45,511 bases of DNA from Candidatus Shapirobacteria bacterium (GTDB lineage Bacteria; Patescibacteriota; Microgenomatia; 0-14-0-10-38-17): the NCBI GenBank assembly GCA_018052565.1, contig JAGPNC010000001.1, positions 1 to 45,511 on the forward strand, in the 5' to 3' direction. Position 1 is the first letter of the stretch, and each line of letters begins with the position of its first letter. A program made the translations under genes and the position numbers. Shown piece by piece: positions 11,245 through 37,163 of this stretch. The notes under the pieces were generated by a model. That model saw only the letters and a list, made by a program, of their open reading frames with translations. It made no database searches and was not told where the DNA came from.

Positions 11245-11349
11245 ATGAGACTAACCACCCCGGCAAGGGAAAAGTTGCTAAATTGTTGGGTTTCTCCGGT
11301 TGATTCGCTGTGGGCAAAAAACAAAATAACCAAAATGGTTGTGACATAA
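11245..11349 (+). CDS. Possible 34-aa small protein ending in a large palindrome
   Basis: An ATG at 11245 opens 34 codons (starts MRLTTPAREKLLNCW, ends KITKMVVT). Upstream, TACTATAACTATAGCGGCAAG places -10-like words about 7-15 nt from the ATG, the same geometry as the leaderless-looking promoters at rpmE and 10580. The TAA stop falls inside the 42-bp palindrome at 11339. No family is recognised and the evidence is weak; this may be an untranslated short RNA region instead. Confidence 0.25.
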   Translation: MRLTTPAREKLLNCWVSPVDSLWAKNKITKMVVT

Positions 11350-11380
11350 AATTGAGCGATCGCTCAATTTTATGTCACAA
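11339..11380. repeat. Perfect 42-bp palindrome, no loop
   Basis: The left arm TTGTGACATAAAATTGAGCG plus A is followed at once by its exact reverse complement, centred on GCGATCGC. There is no mismatch and no spacer. No T-run follows on either strand, so it does not look like an ordinary terminator. It lies 111 bp upstream of tRNA-Val. It could be a cruciform-forming site, a dimeric protein operator or a resolution/termination site. Confidence 0.9.
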
Positions 11381-11491: not shown

Positions 11492-11565
11492 GGGCAGTTA
11501 GCTCAGTTGGCTAGAGCATTCGCTTGACATGCGAAAGGTCACAGGTTCAAGCCCTGTACTGCCCA
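11492..11565 (+). tRNA. tRNA-Val (anticodon GAC)
   Basis: The acceptor stem GGGCAGT pairs perfectly with ACTGCCC. The D stem is GCTC/GAGC. The anticodon stem TTCGC/GCGAA encloses the loop TTGACAT with anticodon GAC, reading GUC/GUU. The T arm is ACAGG-TTCAAGC-CCTGT. The discriminator base is A, and the genome continues CCT, so the 3' CCA is not encoded and must be added by nucleotidyltransferase. Confidence 0.97.
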
Positions 11566-11624
11566 CCTCGTTATTTAGTATTATGTACCAAATGGCAGGG
11601 ACATAATTCTTTAGGATAGAATAT

Positions 11625-11730: not shown

Positions 11731-11820
11731 AAGCTACTTATGATGAAAGATTATATTCCAACCACATAGCTTAATGCTTTATTTCTACTGCCGCGATCCA
11801 GTTATGCCGAATACGACCGA

Positions 11821-12003
11821 GAACTTAAGAAAGTTAAGAAAGCCAAAGGATTTTTCTAGGAAAAATTAGCGAGGTTAACCAATGCCCCAACAATACAATT
11901 ATTTATTAAAATTGAGAATAGTAAAAACCAAAATCAAACGCTTAATGTTCTTAAGAAAATCGCGAAAGACTTGGGTGTTTTAATTGATGATTTAATAAAA
12001 TAA
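11821..12003 (+). pseudogene. XRE-type helix-turn-helix regulator remnant, copy A
   Basis: In one frame the sequence reads ELKKVKKAKGFF, a TAG stop at 11857-11859, then EKLARLTNAPTIQLFIKIEN and TLNVLKKIAKDLGVLIDDLI up to a TAA at 12001. This is the layout of small XRE/Cro-type DNA-binding antitoxins or regulators (KxSQExLARL...IKIExG...PTLxxLxKIAKxLGVSxDDLI) with the SQ pair replaced by a stop and the N-terminus lost. The part from 11882 onward is repeated at 14309. It ends 15 bp before the DUF2330-like gene. Confidence 0.7.
11882..12000 (+). repeat. 5' cassette repeat H, copy A
   Basis: About 119 bp starting ATGCCCCAACAATACAAT and ending in TTAATAAAA. It is near-identical, with only a handful of substitutions, to 14309-14427. 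It covers the C-terminal half of the XRE remnant. Each copy lies directly before an unrelated secreted or membrane protein gene. Confidence 0.9.
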
Positions 12004-12018
12004 TCGTAAAATAAAACT

Positions 12019-13860
12019 ATGAAAAAAATATCAAATCTCATCACGTTATCGTTAATTATATTTTTAGCGGTATTTTCTTTTATCCCCAAATCAGTATTAG
12101 CAGACGGTATGGTGGTTATACCTGATCCTTACTCAGACAGATGGGATTATTCAAATGAAAGCAACCAGCAAGCGTTTATCAATTATGATGGGGATTTGCA
12201 AAAAATGATTATCAGTGTTGGACTTGAGGGAGAACACAGCAAGGAAGTTGTTTGGCTTTTCCCGGTTCCTGCCGACCCAAATAAAGTTGCGATTGATGTT
12301 TTGGAGAGCCTACCTAGATTAAGCGGAGAAGAAATTTCAGGAAAAGCAAGATCTAACCTTGATGATAAAACAGAGTGGTTACAGATGACACAGCTTTATA
12401 CAATACCGCTTGTCTCGGCCTATGAAACACGCAAGGTAGCGAGCGAAAATGTAAATAAAGCTTTTGACGCACCACAAGGAATTAACGGGATGAGAGAACC
12501 TGATGTTATAGTTTATGAACACTTAGACAAAGAGGGGATTTCTTCGGAAATAATTACGGCAAAAACGGCCAACGGTTTATATGATTATCTAAAAAGAAAG
12601 GGGCTCAAAATTGAGATTGGTTCAATTCCAGTTCTGAATAATTATATTAGTAAAGATTATTCTTTTGTAATCTCGTGGATTACTCCTCAAACAGCATCTG
12701 TTGATAGGAATGAAATTGAAACCTACTTAAATAATTACCTACTAAACCATTATGATAATAAATTGGGAAGGCTAATCGACACATTCTTCGAAACCCATCC
12801 TCAATTAAAGGATCAAACTTCACGCTTTTCGGCTATTGATACGAACCCAGCTTTGAAAGAAGAACTAATAACGCAAATAGAAAATACAATTCAAGAAGAT
12901 CCATTACTACTGCCAAGAGCTCCGACCAAAAATCAGTGGGGCATTTTCGTCACCTTTCCAACACGAAATATCTATTATCCGCTACTTCCCACAAGCGTAT
13001 ATGGAAGCAAAACTGTTCCAACCACAATAAGAGTGATTGGGCATGTTTCACCGAAAATATTTCAGGACATAAAAAGTTATACCAAAACCGAATATTATGT
13101 TGATGGCCACGCCAGTTTCGCCGATGACATAAAAAACTTTTATGACGGACAGAGCAAAGAAATTAAATACACAAAGGTAGAAATCAACGCACCGTCAAAA
13201 TTCCTAACTGATGACTTATGGATCAGCAATTCTACGCCTATAAAAACTTACTACTCAACATTTTTTGCTAAATATCCTGCAACTAGTGCGATACTTTTAC
13301 TAATTATAAGTTCGTTAATAGCTGGAGTTTTGGTAGGTTGGATTATTTTTAAGTCATTAAGAAAAAATATGTTTAAGCTGGGGCTCGTTGGACTATCCAA
13401 CTGTTTGTCAATTCTGGGCTTATTGATAACAACCGTTCTTATCAGCACAAAAGAAAAAGATGAAGACATCAAGCCAGTGCTCACTGAAATAGAACAAAAG
13501 GGTTATGTCTGGAAAAGGAAGCTCGCGGCTATTCTATTAGTGGCCGACTCGCCATTTTTATTAATTTCCTTTCCTAGTCTAATCGAAGAATTGGTAGATT
13601 CATTTGGTCCGGGTTATTTCTACGCGACAGAACAGCTCACATTAGTATTAGTTTTAGTCGCAGTATTGATATTTTCTCTAATAATCAAAAGAGTAAGGCC
13701 GGAAGACAAAAATTTGTTTGAGCAGCTTAAATTAAACAATTATTCATCGTGGTCATTTCAGCCGAAAGATAGAGCAAAAATTATATTTGTTCCCCTCTTT
13801 TCAGTTTCTTTCCTGGGAATTTCCTGGTTGTTAGTCAAATTAGTTGGGCTTACGGTTTAG
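12019..13860 (+). CDS. DUF2330-like secreted/membrane protein
   Basis: The 613-aa product has a cleavable-looking signal peptide (residues 1-28, ending VLADG), then a long exported region. Its start, DGMVVIPDPYSD with NQQAFINYDGDLQKMIISV and VVWLFPVPADPNKV, has the pattern of DUF2330 (an exposed DGMM..P start, an IFYDG-type core and the WxxPVP motif). From about residue 418 there are five hydrophobic segments (e.g. AILLLIISSLIAGVLVGWII), so the C-terminus is an integral membrane domain. Function is unknown. It lies between repeat H (copy A) and repeat R (copy 1), the same frame of repeats that flanks the serpin gene, pointing to acquisition as a cassette. Its AT-leaning base use differs by eye from thrS downstream. 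Confidence 0.7.
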   Translation: MKKISNLITLSLIIFLAVFSFIPKSVLADGMVVIPDPYSDRWDYSNESNQQAFINYDGDLQKMIISVGLEGEHSKEVVWLFPVPADPNKVAIDVLESLPRLSGEEISGKARSNLDDKTEWLQMTQLYTIPLVSAYETRKVASENVNKAFDAPQGINGMREPDVIVYEHLDKEGISSEIITAKTANGLYDYLKRKGLKIEIGSIPVLNNYISKDYSFVISWITPQTASVDRNEIETYLNNYLLNHYDNKLGRLIDTFFETHPQLKDQTSRFSAIDTNPALKEELITQIENTIQEDPLLLPRAPTKNQWGIFVTFPTRNIYYPLLPTSVYGSKTVPTTIRVIGHVSPKIFQDIKSYTKTEYYVDGHASFADDIKNFYDGQSKEIKYTKVEINAPSKFLTDDLWISNSTPIKTYYSTFFAKYPATSAILLLIISSLIAGVLVGWIIFKSLRKNMFKLGLVGLSNCLSILGLLITTVLISTKEKDEDIKPVLTEIEQKGYVWKRKLAAILLVADSPFLLISFPSLIEELVDSFGPGYFYATEQLTLVLVLVAVLIFSLIIKRVRPEDKNLFEQLKLNNYSSWSFQPKDRAKIIFVPLFSVSFLGISWLLVKLVGLTV

Positions 13861-13903
13861 AAATTTTTGGTGACTTTCCAGTAATGCTGACACAAAATTC
13901 GGT

Positions 13904-14094
13904 GGCAAGAAACGAGAGTGGGCAAAAATTCCTTCCCCCCCAATTTCTTTCCTTTTTGCCTGCACGAGCGTTCAGTTTGGCGCACACCTGCCCGCCGAAT
14001 CCTTGGCGCAGGCAGGAAACGCGCCTGTTAGTTCCGTTTAAAAAAGGTTCGGATCTCATCAAATAATCGCACTAAAAAAACATCAAGCATTTGG
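13904..14094. repeat. 3' cassette repeat R, copy 1 (191 bp)
   Basis: It begins GGCAAGAAACGAGAGTGGGC and ends AACATCAAGCATTTGG. It is matched base for base over 191 bp by 15818-16008 with about three substitutions. Inside is an imperfect hairpin, CCTGCCCGCC-GAATCCTT-GGCGCAGGCAGG. It lies 43 bp after the DUF2330-like gene. Confidence 0.95.
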
Positions 14095-14109
14095 CGCCAA
14101 ATATCATGT

Positions 14110-14305
14110 ATAATTAAAATTTCAAAATTCAAATATTAGATAGTAAACCTGCCTGCGGCAGGCAGGACTATATGGCAAATGTTAAATCTTTTTAAAAGCT
14201 TAAAAGCACTTTAAGGTTTTGAATTTTAGGTTGTCCCGCCATGGGGGATCCCACTATGGCAGTGGTAGTTTTAACATTTGCCATTTACGTTTTGAATTTT
14301 TAATC
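14110..14305. repeat. Intergenic inverted repeat between the two cassettes
   Basis: AT-rich arms (TGGCAAATGTTAAATC facing TTTTAACATTTGCCATT) enclose GC palindromes CCTGCCTGCGGCAGGCAGG and GTCCCGCCATGGGGGATCC. It is the same family as elsewhere in the window. It separates repeat R copy 1 from repeat H copy B. No gene is seen. Confidence 0.6.
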
Positions 14306-14308
14306 TTT

Positions 14309-14427
14309 ATGCCCCAACAATACAATCATTTATTAAAGTTGAGAATAGTAAAAACCAAAATCAAACGCTTAATGTTCTTAAGAAAATCGCGAAAGACTTG
14401 GGTGTTTTAATTGATAATTTGATAAAA
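14309..14427 (+). repeat. 5' cassette repeat H, copy B
   Basis: This is the second copy of the 119-bp repeat at 11882-12000. Differences include ATTATT to ATCATT, AAATTG to AAGTTG and TTTAATA to TTTGATA. Similarity stops abruptly at ATGCCCC on the left, where copy B adjoins an unrelated intergenic repeat. Confidence 0.9.
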
Positions 14428-14430
14428 TGA
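14311..14430 (+). pseudogene. XRE-type helix-turn-helix remnant, copy B (C-terminal fragment)
   Basis: In frame it reads APTIQSFIKVENSKNQNQ then TLNVLKKIAKDLGVLIDNLI to a TGA at 14428. This is the second half of the XRE domain with no start and no DNA-recognition helix. It is coextensive with repeat H copy B and ends 47 bp before the serpin ATG. It is almost certainly not a functional protein. Confidence 0.65.
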
Positions 14431-14477
14431 GAAAAAACATAAACAAGGTTAAAAAATAACCTAAATTTTTTAAGAAT

Positions 14478-15731
14478 ATGACTAAAAAATTTTTACTAAT
14501 CGCATTAATAGTTGTTGCGGTTGCTGGTGTAGCTACGGCGGCAGTGTTGTTTCTTTTCCCATATAACCCTGCTCAACCGCCGCGAACAGACGATACGAAT
14601 TCAACCCCGCAAGGGATTAAAGATGTTGTTAATGCAAATAATAAATTCGCTTTTGACTTATATTCTCAATTGAATAAATCCGAAAAAGGAAATATTTTCT
14701 ACTCCCCGTATAGTATTTCAGCCGCATTGGCGATGACTTATGAGGGGGCAAAGGGACAAACCGCTGATGAGATAAAGTCCGTTTTTCATTTTCCCGACAA
14801 CAACATTTTAAGACCAAATTTTGCCGCAATTTACAATGGCATCAATAAAGGTACGAAAGATTATGAATTGAAAACTGGAAATGCTTTATGGGTCCAGAAA
14901 AATTTTCCTTTGCTTCCTGATTTCACAAGCAGGGTTGAAAAATATTATGGAGGGAAAACGGCTAATTTGGATTTTATCAAAGAAAGCGAGAAATCAAGAC
15001 AGGTAATCAATGACTTCATAGGAGAACAGACGAATAATAAGATTAAAGACTTAATTCCCCCTGGTTCTCTTGACAATATGACGCGGCTTGTTTTGACTAA
15101 TGCAATTTATTTTAAGGGAACTTGGCAATGGGAATTTGATACTTCAGATACCCGAAATGAGGATTTCAAGATTACGGTGGACAATATCGTAAAAGTCCCG
15201 ATGATGAAGATGAATCCAGAAAAAGCAAGTTTCAATTATGCCGACACTGAAGATGCTCAAATTTTGGAATTACCATATAAGGGCGACAAAATCTCAATGT
15301 TGGTGATATTACCAACCAAAGATCTTGCTTCAATAGAATCTTCTTTAACAGCGGAAAAATTGAACGAGTATAAATCCAAGATGAAAGAAACGAAGTTGGA
15401 GTCAATATCGCTTCCAAAATTTGAGTTCGGTACCAAGTATTTCATGAAAGATGCCTTGAGCGCATTGGGGATGCCAACCGCCTTTTCAGAAAGTGCCGAC
15501 TTTTCCGGAATAACAGGGAAAGAAGATTTATATATTAACTTCGTTATCCATCAAGCGTATGTTAAGGTTGATGAGAAAGGAACAGAAGCAGCAGGAGCAA
15601 CTGCTGTCGGTATAGAAACTGTAGCAGACGTGCCAAGGTTTAATGCGAACCATCCGTTTATCTTTATTATCCAAGAAAAAGATACCGGAAACATCCTATT
15701 TTTGGGCAGGGTAATCAATCCAGCAAATTAA
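14478..15731 (+). CDS. Membrane-anchored or secreted serpin (serine protease inhibitor)
   Basis: The 417-aa protein has an N-terminal hydrophobic segment (5-28) followed by a Pro/Thr linker, then a full serpin fold. Recognisable parts are NKFAFDLYSQL, NIFYSPYSISAALAMTYEGA, LVLTNAIYFKGTWQWEFD, PMMKMNPE and the end NILFLGRVINPAN. The hinge is of the inhibitory type (GTEAAGAT, 368-375), so it should trap a target protease as a covalent complex. Counting from P15 at Gly368 puts P1 at Val382, which would suit an elastase-like or alpha-lytic-like protease (inference). The gene is flanked by repeat H copy B and repeat R copy 2, as the DUF2330-like gene is by the other copies. It is likely acquired; it may protect an epibiont's surface proteins from host or competitor proteases. 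Confidence 0.95.
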   Translation: MTKKFLLIALIVVAVAGVATAAVLFLFPYNPAQPPRTDDTNSTPQGIKDVVNANNKFAFDLYSQLNKSEKGNIFYSPYSISAALAMTYEGAKGQTADEIKSVFHFPDNNILRPNFAAIYNGINKGTKDYELKTGNALWVQKNFPLLPDFTSRVEKYYGGKTANLDFIKESEKSRQVINDFIGEQTNNKIKDLIPPGSLDNMTRLVLTNAIYFKGTWQWEFDTSDTRNEDFKITVDNIVKVPMMKMNPEKASFNYADTEDAQILELPYKGDKISMLVILPTKDLASIESSLTAEKLNEYKSKMKETKLESISLPKFEFGTKYFMKDALSALGMPTAFSESADFSGITGKEDLYINFVIHQAYVKVDEKGTEAAGATAVGIETVADVPRFNANHPFIFIIQEKDTGNILFLGRVINPAN

Positions 15732-15817
15732 AACTCTAGGTGGTTCATTTCGAAAAGCGGAATACGAAATTCGGCGGCGGCGCCCCGGAATCAGCCCACC
15801 AGAGGCGGACGCCACGG

Positions 15818-16008
15818 GGCAAGAAACGAGAGCGGGCAAAAATTCCTTCCCCCCCAATTTCTTTCCTTTTTGCCTGCACGAGCGTTCAGTTTGGCGCACA
15901 CCTGCCCGCCGAATCCTTGGCGCAGGCGGGAAACGCGCCTGTCAGTTCCGTTTAAAAAAGGTTCGGATCTCATCAAATAATCGCACTAAAAAAACATCAA
16001 GCATTTGG
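15818..16008. repeat. 3' cassette repeat R, copy 2 (191 bp)
   Basis: This is the second copy of 13904-14094, with about three substitutions (GAGAGC for GAGAGT, GGCGGGAAAC for GGCAGGAAAC, GTCAG for GTTAG). It lies 86 bp after the serpin stop. Both copies are followed by a similar ATCATGTATAATTA stretch. Confidence 0.95.
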
Positions 16009-16225: not shown

Positions 16226-17971
16226 ATGCCCTATAAAAGCAGTTCCCTTTCAACCATGCGCCATTCGGCCGCCCATGTTTTGGCCGCCGCGGTTTTAAAA
16301 CTTTACCCCCAGACAAGGCTGGGCATTGGCCCGGCGATCGAAAATGGTTTCTATTACGACTTTGAGTTTGAGAAACCCCTTTCAAAAGAGGATCTTCCCA
16401 AAATTGAAGCCCAAATGGCAAAAATTATCAAAAAAGATTTTCCCTTTATTAAAAAAACCGCTTCTCTTGCCGAAGCCAAAAAAATATTTAAAAACCAGCC
16501 CTATAAATTAGAATTAATCGAAGACTTAGAGGGTAGGGGAGAGAAAGAGGTTTCCCTCTATCAAAGCGGCGATTTTTTGGATCTTTGTGCCGGACCCCAT
16601 GTTGAAAGCACCGGCAAAATCGGCTCTTTAAAGCTTCTTTCTTTGGCCGGAGCCTATTGGCGAGGAAGCGAGAAAAATCCCATGCTTACCCGTATTTACG
16701 GCACTGTCTTCCCCACCAAAGAAGAGCTTGAAAACTATCTTCACCAGATAGCGGCTGCCGAAGAAAGAGATCACCGTCTTTTAGGAAAAAAACTGGATCT
16801 TTTTTCCTTTCATCCTGATGCTGCCCCCGGCGATGTTTTTTGGCATCCCAAGGGTTATTTTTTAATGAAAAAACTGATTGAATTTTGGCGGGAAGAGCAT
16901 GAAAAGCAGGATTATGGCGAGGTGCGCACGCCAGAAATTCTAAAAAATGAGGTGTGGCGGCAAAGCGGCCATTTAAAATCCTTTGCTGACAAGATGTACC
17001 AAATAAAAACCCCCGACTCTGAATCGTGGGATGCCTGTATTAAACCTATGAATTGTGACGGGGGAATAATGATCTACCAAGGCAAGCTTCGTTCCTATCG
17101 CGACCTTCCTTTGCGCCTGGCAGAAATTGGGGTGGTTCATCGCTTTGAGGCCTCGGGAGAGCTCCATGGCATCATCCGCCCTCGCGAATTCACTCAAGAT
17201 GATGCTCATATCTTTTGTACTCCCAATCAAGTCGAAGAAGAAATTAAAAAAATTATCGATCTTTGCTTTTATTTCTATAAAGTCTATGAGCTTAAGCTTG
17301 ACCACTTAGAGCTTTCAACTCGACCAGAAAAATCAATCGGGGCAGACTCAACGTGGGAAAAAGCCGAAAAAATTATGAAAAAAGTTTTAAAAGAAAGTGG
17401 CGTTCCCTATCAAATTAACCCCGGCGAAGGGGCTTTTTACGGTCCAAAAATTGATTTCCATTTGCGCGATTCGCTAGGCCGCACCTGGCAATGTTCTACC
17501 ATTCAGCTTGACTTTGCCCAACCGGAAAATTTTAATCTTTTTTACATCGACGAGAAGGGCAAGAAAAAAAGACCTGTTATGATCCATCGCGTTATTTATG
17601 GATCGTTAGAGCGTTTTTTAGGAATCTTAATTGAGAACTGCGGTGGCGCTTTTCCTTTTTGGCTCGCCCCTGTCCAGGCCAAAATTATTCCCATTAGCGA
17701 TAGAGAAATATCCTATAGTATAGGAATATTAGGGAAATTAAAGGAAGGAGGCCTGCGGGCAGAATTGGACGACCGCTCCCAAAGCGCTTCCGCGAAAATC
17801 CGTCAAGCCCAAGAAGAAAAAATTCCTTATATGATTATCGTTGGCCAAAAAGAAGAAAAAAACCAAACCATTAACATTAGAACGCGGGAGGGGAAAATTT
17901 TAGGAGAGAAAAAGTTAGCCGCGTGGATAGAAAGCATCGCTCCTCTTGCCAAGGCGCCTTCTCTATGTTAA
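16226..17971 (+). CDS. thrS: Threonyl-tRNA synthetase lacking the TGS domain
   Basis: The 581-aa enzyme attaches threonine to tRNA-Thr. It starts at the editing domain: RHSAAHVLAAAVLKLYP carries the HxxxH pair and DLCAGPHV supplies the other metal-site Cys and His. The class II core includes PMNCDGGIM (zinc Cys), TQDDAHIF (zinc His), YGPKIDFHLRDSLGR, WQCSTIQLDF and MIHRVIYGSLERF (zinc His plus motif 3 Arg). The anticodon-binding domain is at about 480-575. The N-terminal TGS domain (about 60 aa) of the 640-aa enzyme is missing. PMNCDGG replaces the usual PMNCPGH. The gene lies directly right of repeat R copy 2 and marks the end of the accessory locus. Confidence 0.96.
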   Translation: MPYKSSSLSTMRHSAAHVLAAAVLKLYPQTRLGIGPAIENGFYYDFEFEKPLSKEDLPKIEAQMAKIIKKDFPFIKKTASLAEAKKIFKNQPYKLELIEDLEGRGEKEVSLYQSGDFLDLCAGPHVESTGKIGSLKLLSLAGAYWRGSEKNPMLTRIYGTVFPTKEELENYLHQIAAAEERDHRLLGKKLDLFSFHPDAAPGDVFWHPKGYFLMKKLIEFWREEHEKQDYGEVRTPEILKNEVWRQSGHLKSFADKMYQIKTPDSESWDACIKPMNCDGGIMIYQGKLRSYRDLPLRLAEIGVVHRFEASGELHGIIRPREFTQDDAHIFCTPNQVEEEIKKIIDLCFYFYKVYELKLDHLELSTRPEKSIGADSTWEKAEKIMKKVLKESGVPYQINPGEGAFYGPKIDFHLRDSLGRTWQCSTIQLDFAQPENFNLFYIDEKGKKKRPVMIHRVIYGSLERFLGILIENCGGAFPFWLAPVQAKIIPISDREISYSIGILGKLKEGGLRAELDDRSQSASAKIRQAQEEKIPYMIIVGQKEEKNQTINIRTREGKILGEKKLAAWIESIAPLAKAPSLC

Positions 17972-36311: not shown

Positions 36312-36459
36312 GGATTAAAAAAATTCAAAAGTTAAAAGGCAAAATTTAAGTTTTAATCTCAAAACTTAAATGTCAAATGGCAAAACTACATGGCAAATGT
36401 TAAATCTTTTTAGAGTTTTGAGAATAGTTTTCTTTTAGATTTGAGTTTTAACATGTAAT
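36309..36459. repeat. 151-bp pilin-upstream repeat, family A copy 1
   Basis: It starts at the reverse-strand ATG of the PilV-like gene (CATGGATTAAAAAAATTCAA) and ends TTTTAACATGTAAT. It is nearly identical to 37013-37163 (one substitution noticed). It contains an internal inverted repeat (CTCAAAACTTAAATG facing GAGTTTTGAGA; TGGCAAATGTTAAATC). Confidence 0.9.
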
Positions 36460-37015: not shown

Positions 37016-37163
37016 GGATTAAAAAAATTCAAAAGTTAAAAGGCAAAATTTAAGTTTTAATCTCAAAACTTAAATGTCAAATGGCAAAACTACATGGCAA
37101 ATGTTAAATCTTTTTAGAGTTTTGAGACTAGTTTTCTTTTAGATTTGAGTTTTAACATGTAAT
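37013..37163. repeat. 151-bp pilin-upstream repeat, family A copy 2
   Basis: This is the second copy of 36309-36459, at the equivalent place before the FimT-like gene. Near-identity over 151 bp between two AT-rich non-coding stretches points to recent duplication or gene conversion. Confidence 0.9.

Follow-up and report, generated by a model that had tools for sequence, protein, structure and literature searches.

The interval between the tRNA-Val and thrS genes of this Candidatus Shapirobacteria genome probably holds two decayed gene cassettes, one behind the other, from a family of non-autonomous mobile cassettes that belongs to this bacterial class. Judged by sequence comparison, these cassettes look like carriers of unrelated cargo between distant families of the class, and the two repeats of the interval, H and R, would be what two related, decayed cassettes have in common. 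Comparison of the genomes shows how a complete cassette is built: it opens with an inverted R end bearing a hairpin of type b, followed by the gene for an XRE-family regulator, which has a palindromic operator of its own. The cargo, a single unrelated gene or operon, begins a few to about 120 bases past the stop codon of the regulator, and an R end bearing a hairpin of type a closes the unit.

The interval between tRNA-Val and thrS

The window, that is, the whole stretch of 45,511 nucleotides analysed here, belongs to contig C6 of an 840-kb draft genome in 44 contigs; the relatives of the organism are small-genomed, and its gene content points to Patescibacteria. The order between tRNA-Val and thrS is H, a DUF2330-like gene, R, a spacer, H, a serpin gene, and R (Table 1), as described in the initial annotation, and both repeats are indeed near-identical. 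The H copies (11882-12001 against 14309-14428) differ at 4 of 120 positions (97% identity; blastn within the window, E=2e-52), all four differences lying close to the two ends of H, while the R copies differ at 3 of 191 (98% identity; E=1e-99 with flanks), and every one of these substitutions is a transition. An independent dispersal of the two repeats throughout the genome was looked for and is not the case: H and full-length R are each present only twice in the 840-kb draft, at this locus. That the cargo genes are unrelated was also borne out, as neither blastn nor tblastx revealed anything in common between the cargo A and cargo B regions. The match of cargo A to DUF2330 is just under the Pfam cut-off, and that of cargo B to serpins, proteins best known from animals, has an E value of 4e-122. 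Relatives of the former were found in 3 other genomes of the class and of the latter in 11.

Table 1. Features of the tRNA-Val/thrS interval and its neighbours (positions in the window)
Feature	Positions	Strand	Remarks
tRNA-Val (gac)	11492..11567	+	left neighbour of the insert; ARAGORN
Decayed XRE-type HTH regulator gene, cassette A	11806..12003	+	in-frame TAG at 11857-11859; weak Cro/C1-type HTH match
Repeat H copy A, 3' end of XRE gene	11882..12001	+	
Cargo A, DUF2330-like membrane protein, 613 aa	12019..13860	+	
Inner hairpin type a (CCAGTAATGCTG) and ACACAAAATTCGGT, R end of cassette A	13878..13903	+	
Repeat R copy A, 3' terminal element of cassette A	13904..14094	+	nested palindrome CCTGCCCGCCGAATCCTTGGCGCAGGCAGG
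Spacer, member of dispersed AT-rich foldback family	14095..14308	+	
Repeat H copy B, XRE gene remnant	14309..14430	+	cut at ATGCCC
Cargo B, serpin, 417 aa	14478..15731	+	
Inner hairpin type b (ATTTCGAAAAGCGGAAT) and ACGAAATTCGGCGGCG, beside R copy B	15747..15779	+	in other genomes type b sits 5' of cargo
Small G+C-rich palindrome insert	about 15780..15817	+	R copy B only, absent from copy A
Repeat R copy B, 3' terminal element of cassette B	15818..16008	+	
thrS	16226..17971	+	right neighbour of the insert

The initial annotation had taken H both for a part of an XRE-type regulator, broken off in copy B, and for the 5' end repeat of a unit. The first view holds and the second does not: by its sequence, H is the final part of the XRE regulator gene that belongs to the cassette itself. 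Copy A retains a longer stretch of this gene than copy B, the H frame running on upstream, and its decayed gene shares 47% identity with an intact XRE gene from another genome (G021). The ATGCCC at which copy B is truncated is the same six bases as at the start of thrS.

The spacer (214 bases) comes from an AT-rich foldback family that has about 60 matches across the genome, and its segment 14140-14280 has a fold z score of -3.7. Compared with the thrS leader, it turned out not to be a copy of it; its closest matches are other places in the genome, and the leader ranks low. The shared ATGCCC, standing beside such a spacer, is therefore only suggestive of a duplication breakpoint. Two similar copies of the foldback family lie 704 bases apart elsewhere in the window (36379-36412 and 37083-37116), and a perfect 42-base palindrome (TTGTGACATAAAATTGAGCGATCGCTCAATTTTATGTCACAA) is located upstream of tRNA-Val, at 11339-11380. 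Promoter-like and terminator-like matches in the interval were at or modestly above the shuffled expectation and were not used as evidence.

R ends, regulators and cargoes in other genomes of the class

When a relative of R from G042 served as the query, 39 of 374 class genomes yielded members of the R family, single-contig genomes among them (e.g., G019 and G105), with up to 93% identity between families. Many of the copies form inverted pairs, 1.5 to 3 kb apart, around one gene. Inverted pairs enclosing cargo were seen in G042, G065, G073, G082, G156, and G305; the window retains the 3' ends only, and a search upstream of its XRE remnant detected no 5' R end. The different 5' and 3' repeats initially proposed as the ends of a unit thus give way to an inverted pair of R ends, which bounds the complete units. 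Since many R ends lie at contig ends, several units are incomplete.

In the alignment, the constant part of R consists of ACGAAATTCGGCGGCGG, then a hairpin formed by GGGCAAAAA...TTTTTGCCC, then GTTCAAAAAAGGTTCG and the outer end, and the inner hairpin comes in two kinds, a and b. Hairpin a is 3' of the cargo in all nine cases and hairpin b is 5' of it in 9 of 10, the single exception being copy B of the window; when the window is left out, the figures are 8/8 and 9/9 (Fisher P 4e-5). As copy B carries the hairpin type otherwise found 5' of the cargo, it appears to be rearranged. R could be ruled out as a known structured RNA, there being no such Rfam match, and also as a thrS leader, since it follows the DUF2330 gene as well and many unrelated genes in other places.

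An intact XRE gene separates the cargo from the 5' R end in G065, G082, G156, and G305, preceded in each by the palindromic sequence TTTGGTAGTATA...TACTACAATACTACCAAA. The regulator is 90 to 97% identical at the amino acid level in nine genomes from nine families. At the DNA level the coding sequence averages 86% identity, and third codon positions account for 743 of the 1045 differences, whereas the 85 bases past its stop codon are unrelated in each genome (30% identity, the chance level). XRE matches within R loci numbered 10 against 0.09 expected, about 100 times the class-wide density (Poisson P ~1e-17); most of the XRE loci with less similar regulators (52 to 71% identity) show no R end. 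Remnants resembling H, derived from the 3' parts of other XRE genes, were found directly upstream of the cargo in G042 and G073 and directly past an R end, as in the order of the window, in G305 and G026.

The search of other genomes for H-cargo-R units with other cargo, which the initial annotation had proposed, found them within the class. By Pfam, their cargoes include DUF3160, Ppx/GppA, glyoxalase, rhomboid, and D12 methylase proteins, as well as restriction enzymes of type I, NgoPII type, and Eco57I type; several have no Pfam match. Known defence genes were ruled out as cargo save for the three restriction enzymes, which were the sole PADLOC matches. The cargoes are unlike one another, except for one DUF3160 cassette common to G082 and G317, genomes of different families, at 85 to 91% DNA identity. 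The G317 copy (L285) is split by about 1.1 kb containing a 320-aa transposase-like reading frame. No transposase or recombinase was detected by Pfam in the cargo of G042, G065, G073, G082, G156, G305, or G325. A mobiliser was sought among the gene families that recur beside R; these are methylases, large serine recombinases (LSRs), and XRE regulators, and none of the enzymes among them lies within R pairs.

Comparison of the tRNA-Val/thrS interval in relatives, likewise proposed at the outset, revealed an empty site in G002, of the same family, where thrS starts 46 bases past tRNA-Val and the upstream genes (trigger factor and a DUF5660 gene) match those of the window. In G346, from another family, an R end adjoining thrS lies 78 bases from tRNA-Val, and R also forms the end of a second contig, where it adjoins trigger factor and a gene read as a DUF5660 homologue. 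The G346 cassette (L222 and L228) has an ArsR-like regulator first, instead of XRE, and both contig ends fall inside this regulator. A thrS search of the contigs of other genomes returned only distant genomes (at most 55% identity) and so gave no close empty-site comparison; for the G019 cassette, an empty orthologous site sought in two genomes of its genus yielded no clear homologous flank. The outer ends of R lie within 300 bases of a tRNA gene in 4 of 37 cases, which is suggestive only. Inspection of the G325 outer ends by eye, with no empty site of a close relative at hand, showed no target duplication.

Origin of the tandem arrangement

We propose that two related insertions beside tRNA-Val would have placed H-DUF2330-R and H-serpin-R side by side, and that decay would later have affected the regulator genes as well as the R ends on the 5' side, copy B ending up with an exchanged inner hairpin. 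Several observations count against this reading: the window shows no 5' R end, copy B bears the hairpin type of the opposite side, neither a transposase or recombinase inside the cassettes nor a target duplication was found, most loci with less similar regulators show no R end, several units are incomplete, and the spacer does not copy the thrS leader. The R ends may serve as recognition sites of a mobilising enzyme supplied in trans. The regulator may govern expression of the cargo through a promoter common to both, in the manner of C proteins in restriction-modification systems; this is suggested by the layout, the third-position bias of the substitutions, and the restriction cargo of some cassettes. 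The initial annotation had held that either cargo exchange or repeated insertion was needed. As cassettes of one lineage have a common regulator and common ends with different cargo, two successive insertions suffice, and exchange in place between fixed ends becomes unnecessary. Its notion of a mobile or exchangeable cassette is supported in part, in that H-cargo-R units recur with other cargo.

Exchange in place is nevertheless possible, if on balance unlikely: in a cassette duplicated or shared in the population, homologous recombination in the regulator tail and the R end would have replaced the cargo. This would fit the abrupt change at the stop codon of the XRE gene and close to the inner hairpin of R, the position of the four H differences near its two ends, and the inner hairpin of copy B, whose type differs from that of copy A as though it had arrived with the serpin. 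Donors sharing these ends would, however, have to be present in the population, and none were seen, and the differences are too few for crossover mapping. We consider it improbable, and less likely than exchange in place or two stacked cassettes, that one H-DUF2330-serpin-R block was duplicated in tandem and then lost one cargo per copy, the junction of copy B marking the breakpoint at ATGCCC. The six-base identity between the truncation of H copy B and the thrS start codon, a leader ahead of H copy B that ends like the thrS leader, and the near-identity of H and of R with everything different in between argue for such a history. Against it, the stretch separating R copy A from H copy B is no copy of the thrS leader and has better matches in other places of the genome, and the lost cargo left no trace. 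Moreover, the regulator and the R ends already accompany single unrelated cargoes in other genomes, so that an ancestor with two cargoes is unnecessary. These genomes contain scattered R-family pieces and AT-rich repeats, and H and R might be unrelated dispersed repeats lined up by chance, but this is very hard to reconcile with the confinement of H and full-length R to this locus within the genome and with the recurrence of the regulator-cargo-R order in other families, with strong enrichment and a fixed polarity of the ends.

Another proposal leaves the stacked cassettes in place and concerns the enzyme: the cassettes would be parts of integrative elements moved by an LSR at tRNA genes, elements whose XRE regulator and restriction cargo are of the same kind. 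In G365, G178, G060, G325, and G001, LSR genes whose 3' ends are near or overlap a tRNA gene lie near XRE-cargo units or R ends, the same XRE-NgoPII-Dcm-Vsr unit accompanies an LSR in G046 and G365, and one LSR lies near R in G315. We nonetheless rate this variant as rather unlikely, since the interval of the window contains no LSR gene, nor does any R pair, most LSR loci have weak R-like traces only, and, in contrast to att sites, the R ends stand in inverted orientation. The proximity of LSR genes to XRE-cargo units or R ends is a lead rather than a finding.

Relation to known elements and implications

The closest known kind of element is the mobile insertion cassette (mic/MIC), as defined in PMC3913671. 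The first one to be described, MIC231A1 of Bacillus cereus, is moved by the IS231A transposase; the qnrD cassette of that paper has 24-bp ends and a 2-bp target duplication. As in those elements, a passenger gene lies between inverted repeats, no transposase gene is present, and the ends are common to different cargoes. New features would be the length and polarity of the ends and the near-constancy of the regulator: the R ends measure about 100 to 250 bp, contain several hairpins, and come in two distinct types, a dedicated XRE regulator precedes the cargo, and neither a helper nor a duplication is known here. Restriction-modification units under C-protein control have been described as mobile elements with imperfect inverted end repeats (PMC3874152, PMC3031569), and the cassettes resemble them in their inverted end repeats, in the XRE/HTH controller gene upstream, and in the restriction cargo that several carry. 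Most of the tested cargoes, however, are not restriction genes (serpin, DUF2330, DUF3160, Ppx/GppA, rhomboid, and glyoxalase). A controller directly upstream of restriction genes was found in G046, G315, and G365 and not in the window, and as the cargo of the window does not consist of restriction genes, we do not class it as a C-protein-controlled unit. In G365 (L287, 2559-7758), an LSR gene adjoins the XRE-NgoPII-Dcm-Vsr restriction unit and ends close to a tRNA-Ser gene; in G046, of another genus (L294, 62-4595), an LSR gene adjoins such a unit, with an R-like end past its 3' side.

With integron gene cassettes, the units share single unrelated genes between conserved ends and a tandem arrangement, and differ from them in the inverted ends on both sides and in having their own regulator and operator. 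Integron cassettes were rejected, as six R sequences contained no attC core motifs (RYYYAAC/GTTRRRY) on either strand. Carriage by phages or plasmids was rejected as well: the R patterns and the serpin had no matches in viral contigs, and R had none in plasmids. The regulator had no confirmed relative in viral contigs, and in phages only relatives of less than 60% identity.

Taken further, the cassettes may tentatively be regarded as a dedicated gene-cassette exchange system of one small-genomed class, with polar multi-hairpin ends and a common regulator, arbitrary cargo, spread between families, and stacking beside tRNA genes, moved in trans, possibly by a tRNA-targeting LSR. No description of a carrier of this kind was found in the literature searched. 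The gain of accessory genes continues even in bacteria whose genomes are very small, and the carrier could explain the spread of serpins among these bacteria. With a pair of ends that can be recognised and a regulator that hardly varies, the mobile accessory genes of the class could be listed, and the same markers would predict which proteins travel with restriction systems.
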